The notes beneath the pieces are model-generated. The model worked only from the letters and a program-made list of their open reading frames with translations, ran no database searches and was not told the origin of the DNA. Made by a program: the position numbers and the translations under genes. From Weissella confusa (GTDB lineage Bacteria > Bacillota > Bacilli > Lactobacillales > Lactobacillaceae), in the NCBI RefSeq assembly GCF_004766315.1, contig NZ_PVSN01000008.1:1-45164 (forward strand): a DNA stretch of 45,164 nucleotides, read 5' to 3'. Of the stretch, positions 1,894 through 11,299 are shown piece by piece; position 1 is the first letter of the stretch; each line of letters begins with the position of its first letter.

Positions 1894-2493
1894 TTGATGG
1901 GACCAGTGCATTCGGAACACCAAAACCCGAACGTCTATTACAACGCATTTTGACTATTGGTTCTAACGAATCAGACATAGTACTTGATTTCTTTATGGGA
2001 TCTGCGACAACTCAAGCAGTCGCCATGAAGATGAACCGTCGCTTTATTGGGATTGAACAGATGGATTATATTAAAACGGTGTCTGTTGAACGCCTCAAAA
2101 AAGGTGATTGCGGGCGAACAAGGTGGGATTTCTAAAGATGTTAATTGGCAAGGTGGCGGATCATTTGTCTATGCTGAATTGATGGAAAAGAATCAAGGTT
2201 ATCTCAAAGATGTCCAACAGGCCGAAACAACGAAGCAATTAGAAGATGTTGTTCATCGCATGATTGAAGGCGGCGCTGATTTTGATTTCCGAGTTGATGT
2301 TGAAAAAGTCCTGCAAGATCTTGAATACCAAGCCATGGCATTGGCTGATAAAAAGCAGCTGATAGTCAAGGTCATTGATAAGAATCAGTTGTATTATGCG
2401 TACAGTGATATGGACGATCATAATGTACAAGAGCTGATGTCTGATAGTGATATTGCGTTCAATAAGAGCTTTTATGGGGAGCGTGATCTGTAA
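1881..2493 (+). pseudogene. mod: Type III restriction-modification methyltransferase (Mod), 3' remnant
   Basis: Mod subunits of type III systems recognise DNA and methylate adenine N6. Only the C-terminal part remains. It shows GTSAFGTPKPERLLQRI and the SAM-binding motif DIVLDFFMGSATTQAV, then, in another frame, NWQGGGSFVYAEL, a hallmark of type III Mod C-termini. The N-terminal half, with the catalytic DPPY motif and target-recognition domain, is missing; the ISL3 remnant abuts the break. A frameshift lies at the AAAAAAGG tract near 2096-2104: removing one G joins VERLKK to VIAGEQGG. The stop overlaps the res start by one base (TAATG), the usual mod-res coupling. Its A/T-rich, mixed codon use differs from the TTG/AAG-biased core genes and suggests acquisition by transfer. 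The remnant is inactive. Confidence 0.85.
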
Positions 2494-5115
2494 TGGCCAA
2501 AAAGAAAGCACGAGAACTTGTCTTACCAATTATTCATGAGATTAATGACTATACGAGTGACTTTTTGAAAAACGACGAACCCAGACACGCTTTTGTTTAT
2601 CCAGACTACATTAAGCACAATCTCAAACACCAGTTACGTGATTATCAAAAGCAATCACTATACAACTTGAATTACACGCAAAAGGATGCCAATGTTGCCA
2701 GTCGCTTTAATCAGTTGTTATTCCATATGGCCACTGGTTCAGGAAAGACTGATGTGATGGCAGCTGATATGCTGTATTTTTACCATGAATTTGGCTATCA
2801 AAATTTTCTATTTGTCGTTAATACAAACGCGGTGATTGCTAAAACCCGTGAAAACATGCTGAATGTTCAGTCACCAAAGTACCTCTTTTCACAACTACTC
2901 AATATTGATGGTACTCCGATTGAATTGCGAGAAGTCACCCGCTTTCCAACAAACAGTGAACCAGGCGTGATTTACTTGCGGCTAACAACAATCCAAACTT
3001 TAGCAAATGAATTAAATACACCACGCGAAAATGGTTTAACTTATGGTGATTTAGAGAAACAGAAGTTGATTATTCTAGCTGATGAAGCGCATCATTTTTC
3101 TGCCGGCACAAAGAGCAAAGCAGATCAAAAAAATAAAGCGTGGGAATATGTCTTAGATCGTATTCGACAAGCTAATAAAGATAATCGACAGTTAGAATTC
3201 ACGGCTACGATTGATTTAAATAATGAGTCTATTTACGAAAAATATCGGGATAAGGTCATTTTTCAATATGATTTAAAAGAGTTTCAAAATGCCGGGTATT
3301 AAAAGAAAATCGCTCGGTTGCAAGCCAATGCTGATGATAACGAGAAGATGCTGAATGCGGTGTTGTTATCACAATATCGTAAGCGCATGGCGATCCAGGT
3401 GGGTGTACGAGATTTTAAGCCAGTTATTTTATTTAAATCAAATAAAATTGACGTTTCAAAAGCGGCGCGTTATCAATTTTTGACGTTGCTGGATCAATTA
3501 ACGACTGAAGATCTGGCGCAATTTATTGCAAAGCAACGCCAAACCACGCAATCATCTACTTTGCGCCAAGCCTATACTTATTATCAAACAATTGATATGG
3601 GTATCTTGGTCCGTGAATTGCAACGTGATTTTCAACCAATGAATACTATTAATGTTAATGATACGAGTAGCAATGGGATTTTAGGTGACTTAAATGATTT
3701 ACGTAATTTAAATACTTTAGAGGAACCAAGTAATCCCTTTAGAGCTATTTTCGCCGTTGCTAAGCTTTCTGAAGGTTGGGATGTCTTAAATTTATATGAT
3801 ATTGTCCGAATTGGGGAGCAACCCATTACGTCAACACAAACCAATAGTGAGGCGCAATTAATTGGTCGTGGTGCGCGCTACAATCCCTTTGTCTATGAGG
3901 GGGCAACATCGTTTACGCGACGGTTTGACCATAGCACGCCAGAATTACAGATATTAGAGTCCTTACACTATCACACGATTAACGATAAAAAATATATTGA
4001 TAATTTAACGAAATCATTTGAAGCAATGCAGCTTCAAGTTGAAGATGATAAAGACTTTGATATTTTAACCACGACAGTTAAAGCGTCATTTAAGCGGTCT
4101 GATGTCTATCAATATGGCAAGCTGTATTACAATGACGTCGAAGATGTCCCTGAGAGTGAATACAATGGGTTGGCAAAATACGGTGTTCCCGTTGCGGAAC
4201 TGCTTACCGTCAATATTGAGACGGCAGCCCTAGAAGCAACTGCCTTTGATACACAAAATGTTGCTGGTATGAATGAGACACGACTGGTGAAGATTGATGA
4301 TGCCCTCGTCAAAAAAGCAATGGCACGGAATCCTTTCTTCAGATTCAACACCATGAAAAAATATATGCCGACTCTAAATTCTATCTCGGAGTTTATGTAT
4401 GAGGCACAGTGGTTGGGGCAAATAAAAGAAATCCAAGCAACGGTATCGATGGGTTCAGATGCAGTGCTTAGTCGAGAAACACAGCTATTAGTCGTTGAAA
4501 AATATCTAGCCTATATTCAGCGCATGTTAATCATGAACTATAAGCGCCAACGCGGAACCAATAAGTTTATTGGGTTGCCAATTAAAGATGCCGTTCAGGA
4601 TTATCAGAAGCGTGTCCCCGTTAACTATTCTGATGCTGGGGGTTCATGAGTTAATTCAAATCTATGACTATAAAAAGGCACCTTGGTTTGTCTATAACGA
4701 GGCTATTGTTGATAAATTGGAACGCAGTTTAATCGAACTGGTTCAAGGATATGTTGAAGAGCTACAAAACAAGTACAAAGACGTTTATCTCATCCGGAGT
4801 GATGAGCGTAATACTAAGCTAAAATTGCATGAATTTGCTGGAGATGTCTCTCACTATGCTGGTTTCTTACCTGACTTTGTCTTGTATTTGGCCAATGAGT
4901 CGTACATTTATCAGATTTATATTGAACCCAAGGGTACCCAATTGCTGGCTCAAGACCAATGGAAAGAGGACTTGTTAACGAGTATTTCGCCTGAAAGTGT
5001 CGATGTGATTGGCGAAAATGATTAAGTTAAGTTGTATGGTGTTAAATTTTATGTTGCAGGTGATGAACGTCAAGTTCGAAAAGACATAGCGGGTATGCTT
5101 AGTGAATCAATATAA
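2493..5115 (+). pseudogene. res: Type III restriction enzyme (Res) subunit, inactivated
   Basis: Res is the ATP-dependent translocase and endonuclease of type III systems. In order, the remnant shows: Walker A ATGSGKT (residues 80-86), DEAH (about 197-200), FTATI (motif III), EGWDVLNLYDIVRIGE and QLIGRGARYNPF (motifs V and VI), and a C-terminal PD-(D/E)xK nuclease signature LPDFVLYL...YIEPKGT. Three lesions break it: an in-frame TAA at 3300-3302 (AGY*KKIARL); a frameshift at the GGGGG run near 4637-4641, where the frame moves into VHELIQIYDYKKAPWF; and an in-frame TAA at 5023-5025, after which VKLYGVKFYVAGDERQVRKD continues to the natural stop at 5113-5115. Two of the lesions are substitutions, so sequencing error is an unlikely explanation for all three. 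Confidence 0.9.
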
Positions 5116-7698: not shown

Positions 7699-9051
7699 AT
7701 GAGCTTTAAGAGTGCATTGGCAACTTTTGTTGGTAAAAGTTCATACGTGGTATTGCACGACATTTTGCGTCGTGGCGGTACATCATTGCCAGGAAAGTTG
7801 GCAACGAAGATTGATCCTGAAGTGATGACGACGTTGGCAGAACACTACGACGTTATTTTGATCACAGGAACTAACGGAAAGACGTTGACGACAACTTTGA
7901 CGACCCGCGTTTTGCGTGAAAAGTACCCTGACGTTATCACGAACCCATCAGGTTCAAACATGATGCAAGGAATCACGGGAACGATGTTGACGGCCAAGGT
8001 GACCGATAAGTCACAACGCCCAATCGCACTTTTGGAAGTTGATGAAGCTAACGTGGAAGCCGTTGCACGTCAATTGAAGCCTAAGGCGTTTGTTTTGACA
8101 AACATCTTCCGTGACCAATTGGACCGATTCGGTGAAATTTACACGACCTACGACAAGATTTTGAAGGGAATCCGTTTGTTCCCTGAGGCAACGGTTATCG
8201 CCAACGCAGATTCACCAATCTTTATGCGTGGTAACTTGCCAAATCCAAAGGTTTACTTCGGTTTCAACCACTTGCCAGCTGATGGTGACATGAAGGCACC
8301 GCACAATACTGACGGTATTTTGTCACCAACTGACGATACGGTGCTACACTATCACTTTATGACGTTCGGAAACCAAGGTGACTACTTCTCAGTCACCGAC
8401 GATTTCAAGCGTCCAGAGTTGGATTATGCTGTAACAAAGGTTAACGAGATGACGCCACGTTTCTCAAACTTTGATATCGATGGTGAGACGTACCAAATCG
8501 AAATTGGTGGAATGTACAACATCTACAACGCCTTGGCTGCTTATGCTGTTGGTCGTTACCTAGGTGTTTCTACGGAACAAATTCACCACGCCTTCGAATC
8601 AAATGCCCAAATCTTTGGTCGCCAAGAAGCGGTTAAGGTGAACGGCAAGGAAGTAACGATTGTCTTGATTAAGAACCCAGTCGGTGCGAACCAAGTTATC
8701 GACATGATGAAGACGGATGATCAACCATTCTCATTGATTGCTTTGTTGAACGCCAACTATGCTGACGGTATCGACACAAGCTGGATTTGGGACACTGATT
8801 TCGAGTCTTTGCAAGATTCTGGTATGCAAAAGATTGTCACTGGTGGTGAACGTTATAAGGACTTGTATGTCCGTTTGAAGATGGCTGGTTACGGTGATCT
8901 TCCGGTCTACCAAGACCTCAAGCAAATTGTTAAAGCAATCGACAGCATGCCTACTGAGCGTGTTTACATTGCGGCAACCTACACTGCGATGTTGCAATTG
9001 CGTGCTCAATTGGCACAAGAAGGTTTCATCAAGACTGGTATGGGAGAATAA
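7699..9051 (+). CDS. murT: Lipid II isoglutaminyl synthase, MurT subunit
   Basis: MurT, with GatD, amidates the alpha-carboxyl of D-Glu in lipid II, giving D-isoglutamine in the peptidoglycan stem. The 450-residue protein shows the Mur-ligase ATP loop TGTNGKT (56-62), EVDEANVE (113-120), NIFRDQLDRFGE and the C-terminal DGIDTSWIWD motif, which contains the residues proposed to complete the amidotransferase site. It starts at ATG 7699 after GGAGGA. Oddity: MurT proteins normally carry a four-cysteine zinc ribbon in the middle domain (CPxC...CxxCGFKRP). Here the matching positions read SPTD (209-212) and SVTDDFKRP (231-239), and the whole protein has no cysteine. The gatD start follows five bases after the stop. 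Confidence 0.95.
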   Translation: MSFKSALATFVGKSSYVVLHDILRRGGTSLPGKLATKIDPEVMTTLAEHYDVILITGTNGKTLTTTLTTRVLREKYPDVITNPSGSNMMQGITGTMLTAKVTDKSQRPIALLEVDEANVEAVARQLKPKAFVLTNIFRDQLDRFGEIYTTYDKILKGIRLFPEATVIANADSPIFMRGNLPNPKVYFGFNHLPADGDMKAPHNTDGILSPTDDTVLHYHFMTFGNQGDYFSVTDDFKRPELDYAVTKVNEMTPRFSNFDIDGETYQIEIGGMYNIYNALAAYAVGRYLGVSTEQIHHAFESNAQIFGRQEAVKVNGKEVTIVLIKNPVGANQVIDMMKTDDQPFSLIALLNANYADGIDTSWIWDTDFESLQDSGMQKIVTGGERYKDLYVRLKMAGYGDLPVYQDLKQIVKAIDSMPTERVYIAATYTAMLQLRAQLAQEGFIKTGMGE

Positions 9052-9056
9052 GGAAC

Positions 9057-9767
9057 ATGGCAGCAGAATACGTTTTGCACACCGCACACTTGTACGGTGA
9101 TTTGATGAACACTTACGGTGACTATGGAAACATCGTGGCGATGCGTTATTACGCTTCACAAATCGGTGTCGACGTAGATGTTCAATTGATTTCATTGGGC
9201 GATGAGTTTGATGATAAGAAGTACGACTTCGTTTTGTTCGGTGGTGGTCAAGACTACGAAGAGCAAATCGTTGCGGAAGACTTGAAGTTTAAGGCAGATG
9301 CCATCAAGCGTTACATCGAATCTGATGGACCTTTGTTGGGCGTTTGCGGTGGCTTCCAATTGTTGGGTCACTACTTCTTGATGGCTGATGGTACGCGTGT
9401 TGAGGGTATCTCAGTTATGGATCACTACACGTTGAACCAACAACACAGCCGTTTCATCGGTAACGTGTTGATCAAGGACGAAGTTAACGGTAACGAATAC
9501 CGCGGTTTCGAAAACCACCAAGGACGTACGTTCCTAGGCGAAGGAGAGCGTCCTTTGGGTATGGTTCTTCAAGGTAAGGGAAACAACGGTGAAGACGGCG
9601 GTGAAGGTTTGGTTTACCGCAATGTTTACGGTACGTACTTCCACGGACCTATCTTCACGCGTAACGGAAACTTGGCTTTGCACGTTTTGCAAACGGCATT
9701 GGAGCGCAAGTACCCTGAAGTGAACTGGGCAGAAAAGATGGCCAACATTGAGCCTGAATCATTCTAA
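9057..9767 (+). CDS. gatD: Lipid II isoglutaminyl synthase, glutamine amidotransferase GatD
   Basis: GatD hydrolyses glutamine and passes the ammonia to MurT. At 236 residues it is a class I (triad) amidotransferase of the CobB/CobQ-like type. The nucleophile is C97 in PLLGVCGGFQLLG and the likely catalytic His is H196 in GTYFHGPIF. A conserved RFIGN segment (R132) and GFENHQGRT fit the substrate site known for the family. The start ATG lies five bases after the murT stop with a GGAG within the murT end, so the two are translationally linked. The frame and codon bias are intact. A terminator follows. Confidence 0.95.
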   Translation: MAAEYVLHTAHLYGDLMNTYGDYGNIVAMRYYASQIGVDVDVQLISLGDEFDDKKYDFVLFGGGQDYEEQIVAEDLKFKADAIKRYIESDGPLLGVCGGFQLLGHYFLMADGTRVEGISVMDHYTLNQQHSRFIGNVLIKDEVNGNEYRGFENHQGRTFLGEGERPLGMVLQGKGNNGEDGGEGLVYRNVYGTYFHGPIFTRNGNLALHVLQTALERKYPEVNWAEKMANIEPESF

Positions 9768-9808: not shown

Positions 9809-10045
9809 TCTTATGAGAATGTACTTGTTTATTTTTGGTGAATAAGGCCTTTTGTTAGTTTGGTTGTGGGCAACGCAAGCTCATGTAAACAGCGTACTGT
9901 AACGTTGACTTTTAATTGGTCTCTAAAAAATATGGACGTGCGATATAATTTTACTGTTTAGTAAAATAAGGAGTAGTGGGTTGTGTATCTGAAATGAAAT
10001 ACATAGCTTATATTTTGTTGAATGGATGTAGGGAAGGTGGAATGT

Positions 10046-11299
10046 ATGCAGGTGGACACTTCAAATCCGCAGTTGCTTATTTTGGGAAATGGGTTTGACA
10101 TGGCGGCGGGATTGGCTTCAGGATTTAAAGATTTTTTTGATTCTCGCCAGGGGATGATTAATGCGGGCGAGTATTCAAATACTGTTTGGGATGAGGTTTT
10201 TTCACATTGGCGCAGAAATCATACGTTTTCATCGGATGATGCGTCATGGCGAGACGTTGAAAATGTGATGTATGCTTTTCTGACGACACATGAGAAGATT
10301 GTAACTTCAATTATGATGTACATTCGTTTGCGTCAAATTGGGGTGGACAGATCGAGTGAGACAGCTTTGAATGCAGAGAAAATTTCTTCCGCATACAATT
10401 TAACTGAAAAAGAAGCTGAAGAAATATGGAGACTGTCTAGTCGTATTTATAATATTGTCGGTTCACGATATTCTAATGTGTTTTCTGACGCGTTTGAACG
10501 GGCGGGCTTTGATTTTTTCTTGTCGGGTACAAGCCGTATGCCTTTGAATGAATTTAAGCAGTACGATTTTGGACATGTGACCACAATTTATCTAGATGAG
10601 TTGCATTTGTTCGAAGCTGATTTCAAAAAGTACTTGGATGGCGCAGTTGAAGACAAACAAGAGACATATGTTAAAGCTGCTCAGGCACAGTTTAATGAAT
10701 TGCTTGTGGATCTCTCACCACGTGCTGACAAGCAGTCGACGTACGTTATGAATTTTAACTACACAATGAAAGCGTGGAAAATTGGTTCGTATGATACGCC
10801 ACGTAGTCATGCGCTCTCGGTGCACGGCAACTTAGATGCAGGGGACATTGTATTTGGTATTGATTCTTTCCATATTCACAAGGGTGAGACTGATGAAATG
10901 TTAGATACTAAATTATTGCCGTTTAGCAAGACTTATCGTACTTTGATGTTTGCTACACCAAACCGTGTGAAACTCGACGCTCAGAACTTTAAAGTGTTTA
11001 AATTCTACGGACAGTCATTAGGTGTTCAGGACTATTCATACTTCATGTCGCTTTTTGATGAGGCTAATCTGTACGGTGGCGATGTTACGTTGATTTTCTA
11101 TTACTCACTTTATCCTGGCGTCACTAAGAAAGAGGTGCAGATGGAGACATTCAATCGAGTAAGTGTGTTAATTAACCGCTATGGGCAGACCTTGGATAAT
11201 GAGGCGCATGGTCGAAATTTGTTACATAAGTTACAACTTGAAGGACGAATCATTGTTAGAGATATTGAATTTACGGATAATGCAGAAATTTCTAAGTGA
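10046..11299 (+). CDS. abiH: AbiH-family phage abortive-infection protein
   Basis: AbiH proteins protect lactic acid bacteria from phage by abortive infection; their biochemistry is not settled. The protein shows the family pattern: an N-terminal LLILGNGFDMA motif (residues 10-20), a long helical middle, FNYT (237-240), VHGN (259-262), IVFGID (about 268-273) and a C-terminal YGQSLGVQDYSYF. In family members I recall the last motif as GHSLG; here the His is Gln (Q323), which may matter. I chose ATG 10046, because GGAAGGTGG lies 6 bases before it; the frame also has an ATG at 10022 without a ribosome site. The result is 417 residues. Codon use is more mixed and A/T-rich than in the neighbours, as expected for an acquired gene. 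No partner toxin or antitoxin is obvious. Confidence 0.85.
   Translation: MQVDTSNPQLLILGNGFDMAAGLASGFKDFFDSRQGMINAGEYSNTVWDEVFSHWRRNHTFSSDDASWRDVENVMYAFLTTHEKIVTSIMMYIRLRQIGVDRSSETALNAEKISSAYNLTEKEAEEIWRLSSRIYNIVGSRYSNVFSDAFERAGFDFFLSGTSRMPLNEFKQYDFGHVTTIYLDELHLFEADFKKYLDGAVEDKQETYVKAAQAQFNELLVDLSPRADKQSTYVMNFNYTMKAWKIGSYDTPRSHALSVHGNLDAGDIVFGIDSFHIHKGETDEMLDTKLLPFSKTYRTLMFATPNRVKLDAQNFKVFKFYGQSLGVQDYSYFMSLFDEANLYGGDVTLIFYYSLYPGVTKKEVQMETFNRVSVLINRYGQTLDNEAHGRNLLHKLQLEGRIIVRDIEFTDNAEISK

Follow-up and report, generated by a model that had tools for sequence, protein, structure and literature searches.

The murT-gatD locus

The window analysed here, a 45,164-nucleotide stretch of a Weissella confusa genome, carries murT and, starting five bases past the murT stop, gatD (Table 1). 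The murT product combines a Mur ligase middle domain that begins at residue 55 (Pfam Mur_ligase_M, PF08245, 56.9 bits against a cut-off of 24) with a MurT C-terminal domain (MurT_C, PF08353, 122.4 bits against a cut-off of 25) and has no N-terminal Mur domain, the architecture by which MurT is recognised. It matches S. pneumoniae MurT (6fqb) with an E value of 3.4e-136, and it is the single full-length MurT of its assembly, where a second match is weak and partial (31% over residues 239-384). The identical protein occurs in the Weissella confusa records L003-L005. Its score against the equivalog MurT model of NCBIfam (NF045635), 541.6 bits, lies below the curated 800, as does that of W. paramesenteroides (538.3); since relatives with the full cysteine tetrad score 596 to 702 bits and none of the four tried reaches 800, this cut-off is narrow and its result is not evidence against the window MurT. 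On sequence grounds, the gene is best explained as encoding an ordinary MurT subunit of a MurT-GatD lipid II isoglutaminyl synthase.

Table 1 Features of the murT-gatD region and its surroundings, in window positions
Feature	Position	Strand	Basis
murT, lipid II isoglutaminyl synthase subunit MurT, 450 aa	7699..9051	+	Pfam, 6fqb alignment, model match
ATP loop GTNGKT, residues 57-62	7867..7884	+	sequence motif
Ribbon insertion, about residues 191-240	8269..8418	+	placed via S. pneumoniae MurT insertion 187-236 (PMC6085368)
First knuckle S209-P-T-D212, replaces CPxC	8323..8334	+	alignment
Second knuckle S231-V-T-D234, replaces CxxC	8389..8400	+	alignment
S231-V-T-D234-D-F-K-R-P stretch	8389-8415	+	alignment
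DGIDTSWIWD, residues 356-365, region of MurT aspartate completing GatD triad	8764..8793	+	
gatD, glutamine amidotransferase subunit	9057..9767	+	Pfam GATase_3 (PF07685) 144.9 bits, cut-off 27
AbiH-like protein	10022-11299	+	Pfam AbiH 59.9 bits, cut-off 30.9
Type III restriction-modification remnants	2047-5025	+	
Methyltransferase C-terminal piece	2047-2493	+	
Type III restriction subunit, three ORFs	2493-3302, 3318-4649, 4570-5025	+	successive segments of a single PADLOC REase_III model

A sequence-only reading of this DNA had held that the ATP loop and the DGxDxSWIWD motif of MurT are kept and that gatD is intact, and this is what we find. The loop reads GTNGKT and the motif DGIDTSWIWD, in the region of the aspartate that completes the GatD triad, D349 in S. 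aureus (PMC6113224). GatD has its C97 and H196, both invariant in 39 aligned GatD proteins (15 from Weissella including the window, 24 others). Between these two groups 16 GatD columns differ, mostly by conservative changes. The gene lies beside murT in 14 of 14 Weissella loci and 24 of 38 other loci, in the remainder of which it is beyond the 3-kb flanks or elsewhere. From the kept motifs, ATP- and glutamine-dependent amidation of lipid II is a putative activity of the complex in W. confusa. The AbiH-like gene lies about 250 bases downstream of gatD, and upstream of murT the type III restriction-modification genes look broken by frameshifts or stops.

Ribbon knuckles and their distribution

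In a Cys4 zinc ribbon, four cysteines are held in two knuckles. The window MurT has SPTD and SVTD at these places, and no cysteine in its 450 residues. Both stretches align without gaps to CPDC and CEGC of S. pneumoniae 6fqb and to CPKC and CLNC of S. pyogenes 9sq9; the second knuckle of S. aureus 6gs2 aligns with a one-residue gap (CQC), and D234 stands opposite a cysteine (organism names are from the structure entry titles). The alignments to 6fqb and 9sq9 bear out the earlier claim that all four ribbon cysteines are gone. The replacement itself has been known since 2018, when Morlot et al. described a tetrad shared by Firmicutes with the exception of three genera, Oenococcus, Weissella and Leuconostoc, in which pairs of Ser and Asp take its place (PMC6085368). 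This is the one paper on Weissella or Leuconostoc MurT among the literature matches listed, and our additions to what it says of the ribbon are that the replacement arose once, follows SxTD strictly and contrasts with a four-Ser mutant that is not viable.

Besides the window, 243 MurT rows were compared: 88 have the Ser/Asp form, 147 have four cysteines (CCCC) and 8 deviate otherwise. The tetrad of the 88 reads SDSD in 83, SDSQ in two, and SDSS, SDST and SNSD in one each, without a tetrad cysteine in any of them, and all 88 are intact ORFs that encode a protein of annotated length. Within the family we read 103 of 397 genomes, from 28 of 40 genera (8 Ser/Asp, 20 CCCC); 70 have the Ser/Asp form and 33 CCCC, and no intermediate between the two was seen among the family rows read. 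The 63 named loci, which were found with peptides of the window's own protein and are therefore biased to near kin, divide into 18 Ser/Asp (Weissella and one Lactobacillaceae MAG), 43 CCCC and 2 deviating; they overlap with the family-genome rows, several being of the same species. Other families of the order gave 25 CCCC and 5 deviating rows, plus a further 7 CCCC. In the phylum sample, 40 of the 135 genomes with a match, hand-picked over many groups among those with listed places, there were 39 CCCC rows and one without a ribbon. The presence of the Ser/Asp form in 18 named loci and 70 genomes rules out a sequencing slip in one strain.

In a quick maximum-likelihood tree of 132 rows, calculated with the ribbon columns excluded and with SH-aLRT support but no bootstraps, the 40 Ser/Asp rows make up one side of a single branch (SH-aLRT 100) that is nested within CCCC lactobacilli, and one change suffices to explain the Ser/Asp and CCCC labels on the tree. 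The check that had been proposed for the loss, an alignment across Lactobacillales, therefore shows it to be clade-wide. Because the relatives outside the clade have the tetrad (147 of the 243 rows), the cysteines were replaced rather than originally absent; that the ribbon lies elsewhere, or that relatives never had four cysteines, is ruled out by the alignments, the tree and these rows together. The distribution is best explained by a single fixation of the Ser/Asp form, on the stem lineage of the Weissella/Leuconostoc-type lactobacilli ('Leuconostoc-type' being a label taken from PMC6085368 and from kinship codes).

Among the rows examined, a fixed replacement appears only in this clade. 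One Tetragenococcus halophilus record (L050) reads RCCC, and is perhaps a strain variant or an error, because two others of the same species (L048, L056) read CCCC. CCCG is found in L054 (Atopobacter) and L158, and L174, L178 and L183 are also partly eroded; these five belong to other Lactobacillales families and have open frames of about 435-457 aa. In L184 (genome G477) and L244 (genome G1071), MurT aligns without a ribbon insertion, and such ribbon-free proteins bear on the purpose of the ribbon.

Cysteine content and other zinc sites

In a census based on crude ORF calls over 425 kb of the 2.2-Mb window genome, the ORFs of at least 150 aa hold 178 cysteines in 113,161 residues, and 37 of 44 ORFs of 400-500 aa have none. 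The complete lack of cysteine in MurT, although correctly noted by the earlier reading, is thus unremarkable for this genome, and we dismiss it as a notable feature; among the CCCC relatives, 43 of 147 have no cysteine beyond the tetrad. A rougher count over ORFs beside murT gives 0.39% cysteine in 14 Weissella loci versus 0.63-0.65% in relatives, the figure for the Weissella loci being higher than that for the genome sample by a factor of more than two. Together these counts suggest that cysteines are few in the window genome, and in Weissella loci relative to those of their relatives.

This raises the question as to whether the lineage as a whole has been relieved of cysteine or zinc, in which case MurT would be just one of many proteins to lose a zinc site, with no cause specific to it. 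Besides the cysteine-poor genome sample, this would account for there being a single ORF in 425 kb with two nearby CxxC motifs, and for DnaJ, whose whole zinc-finger domain is missing in 61 of 70 clade genomes. In those 61, the DnaJ_C match spans 441-468 bases, too short for the finger, as compared with 651-675 bases in nine clade genomes (genera g10 and g19) and in all ten CCCC genomes of the 80 measured. Six intact DnaJ proteins of the clade that were read directly have no or one cysteine and a gap in place of the finger. No report of this finger loss in the clade is apparent among the literature matches listed. The DnaJ of the window genome, encoded outside the window (L333, G000:C6:12141-12602, minus strand), lacks CxxCxGxG and retains its J domain, G/F region and DnaJ_C.

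Against a general relief stand the other zinc sites. In a survey of LigA, ClpX, DnaG and DnaJ in 14 genomes, nine of them from the Ser/Asp clade, the LigA cysteines are kept in all 14 and the two CxxC of ClpX in 13, the 14th having a broken reading frame. The DnaG family match is above its cut-off in all 14, with the ligands kept in all five genomes read by pattern; one of these is the window's own, which retains CPFH...CFSC. The CxxCxGxG domain of DnaJ is over its cut-off in seven of the 14, namely five CCCC genomes and two of the clade. Moreover, the finger is kept in two genera that already have the Ser/Asp MurT (nine of nine genomes), so that the MurT and DnaJ changes are separate events. 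With the LigA, ClpX and DnaG sites kept and the DnaJ finger lost in most of the clade, the sequences indicate a selective shedding of zinc sites that took more than one event. A lineage-wide relief without a MurT-specific cause is for these reasons rather unlikely, though to be taken seriously. An equally tentative account would combine both changes: in the clade stem, the metal-held ribbon of MurT, which is part of an essential cell-wall enzyme, would have been rebuilt into a metal-free SxTD form, and parts of the clade would later have excised the DnaJ finger. Structural zinc sites would on this view have been given up selectively and step by step in a life rich in manganese or poor in zinc, with the LigA and ClpX sites kept.

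The SxTD motif and the predicted ribbon

Conservation of the replaced positions was assessed in 59 nonredundant Ser/Asp rows (identity below 97%). Both serines, S209 and S231, are present in all 59. At position 212, 58 rows have Asp and one has Asn; at position 234, 56 have Asp and the other three have Ser, Thr and Gln, so that every departure from Asp is to a residue capable of hydrogen bonding. The motif extends to a threonine in either knuckle, T211 (55 of 59) and T233 (52 of 59). In 83 CCCC rows (family and named loci) the residue at either place is usually Lys, Val, Arg, His or Asn, and the threonines therefore belong to the new Ser/Asp state. The serines are written with both codon families (TCN 82 and AGY 7 for Ser209, TCN 54 and AGY 35 for Ser231, in 89 rows), which means that Ser was retained through two-step codon changes. 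Within the clade, 64-70% of columns are less conserved than three of the replaced positions, and 60% for D234; the mean share of the top residue is 0.81 in the ribbon versus 0.76 in the protein. Judged by these patterns, SxTD is a maintained motif and not decay. Altogether 21 MurT columns differ between the Ser/Asp and CCCC forms: the tetrad, the two threonines and 15 others in or outside the ribbon.

Near-invariant Asp and Ser at all four positions are also what would be expected of metal ligands, and the knuckle geometry is kept in a predicted model. A site for a hard metal (Mg, Mn or Ca) could be formed by the carboxylates of the two Asp and the hydroxyls of the two Ser, in which case the metal would have been swapped rather than lost; lactic acid bacteria can contain manganese in large amounts. 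Yet one of the carboxylates is missing in four of the 59 rows (N at 212; S, T and Q at 234), and a metal site leaves the conserved threonines without a role, which makes such a swap improbable in our view. Least probable of all is that the ribbon is dispensable and its knuckles are drifting remnants, a scenario in keeping with the partial erosion in other Lactobacillales (CCCG twice, CCCD, CC-C and C-CS) and with the absence of the ribbon from one Lactobacillales and one phylum-level row, but at odds with the replaced positions being among the well-kept columns of the clade and with a ribbon that is no more variable than the rest of the protein.

We instead favour a ribbon that is retained and held together by the new side chains, and its predicted structure is consistent with this. 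An AlphaFold2 model of the window MurT has a pLDDT of 85.9 overall, with the ribbon strands predicted. The ribbon blocks covering residues 211-240 score 90/88/93 versus 88/83/93 in a CCCC control (Secundilactobacillus), and both proteins score low over block 201-210, which includes the first knuckle (68 in the window protein, 65 in the control). Since AlphaFold is blind to metals and 27 non-Weissella rows were in the input alignment, the folded ribbon is weak evidence. Compared with solved MurT structures the model gives Z scores of 42.5, 42.0 and 40.7 (streptococcal) and 31.3 (S. aureus), the next family following at 27.7. In S. pneumoniae, the ribbon abuts GatD through a hydrophobic patch of Tyr198, Ile203, Leu204 and Ile211 (PMC6085368); in the 6fqb alignment the corresponding residues of the window protein are H202, I207, L208 and V215, three of the four remaining hydrophobic. 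The suggestion of the sequence-only reading that the ribbon has evolved to fold without zinc stands in so far as the ribbon is located, its cysteines are replaced and the structure prediction it called for yields a folded ribbon; metal-free folding is the part that we infer.

How the knuckles might work can be outlined as follows. Both zinc knuckles would have been turned into the same type of turn, S-x-T-D, in which hydrogen bonds from the side chains of Ser, Thr and Asp could cap the two beta-turns and brace them against each other, replacing the zinc cross-link, so that the shape of the ribbon and its GatD-facing hydrophobic face would be retained without the ion. The hydrogen-bond network, the absence of metal, the activity of the complex and the amidation of lipid II in W. 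confusa are all putative. Taken together, we consider it probable that the window encodes an ordinary MurT in which hydrogen-bonded SxTD turns, fixed once in the clade stem, have taken the place of zinc while the GatD-facing ribbon was kept.

The streptococcal proteins are the closest points of comparison. S. pyogenes MurT/GatD (9sq9, 9sqj) is the nearest structural match (9sqj: Z 42.5, rmsd 3.0 over 395 residues, 47% identity) and differs in having kept CPKC and CLNC. S. pneumoniae MurT/GatD (6fqb; Z 40.7, rmsd 3.0 over 381 residues) has the same subunit, domain order, 50-residue ribbon insertion and catalytic motifs as the window. Its tetrad cysteines form disulfides in the crystal, where no metal was found, and zinc is suspected in vivo (PMC6085368). 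S. aureus GatD/MurT (6gs2, 6h5e) has a homologous two-domain MurT with the ribbon at the same place but with a Cys4 zinc site (about 31% identity to the window, Z 31); a zinc ion was modelled in its crystal structure, and the same paper states that the ribbon is found in only a subset of bacteria (PMC6113224). The engineered loss of the tetrad is instructive: the pneumococcal four-Ser mutant has 23% activity, an altered MurT/GatD ratio and weaker GatD association, is degraded in storage and is not viable in vivo (PMC6085368), which implies that losing the cysteines carries a cost unless other changes make up for it. Whereas four serines fail in the pneumococcus, the window clade has a natural Ser/Asp tetrad with added Thr and manages without the cysteines that the mutant shows to matter in the pneumococcus. 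The SxTD motif may be regarded as a natural answer to the question of the 2018 paper as to the role of zinc in the ribbon (PMC6085368). A drug that acts on MurT by ejecting zinc would not be expected to act on the Ser/Asp genera. Other zinc ribbons have also lost their cysteines with the fold kept, for example in ribosomal proteins with C+ and C- paralogues; in comparison with these, the MurT clade is set apart by an identical S-x-T-D at both knuckles that is fixed throughout the clade.
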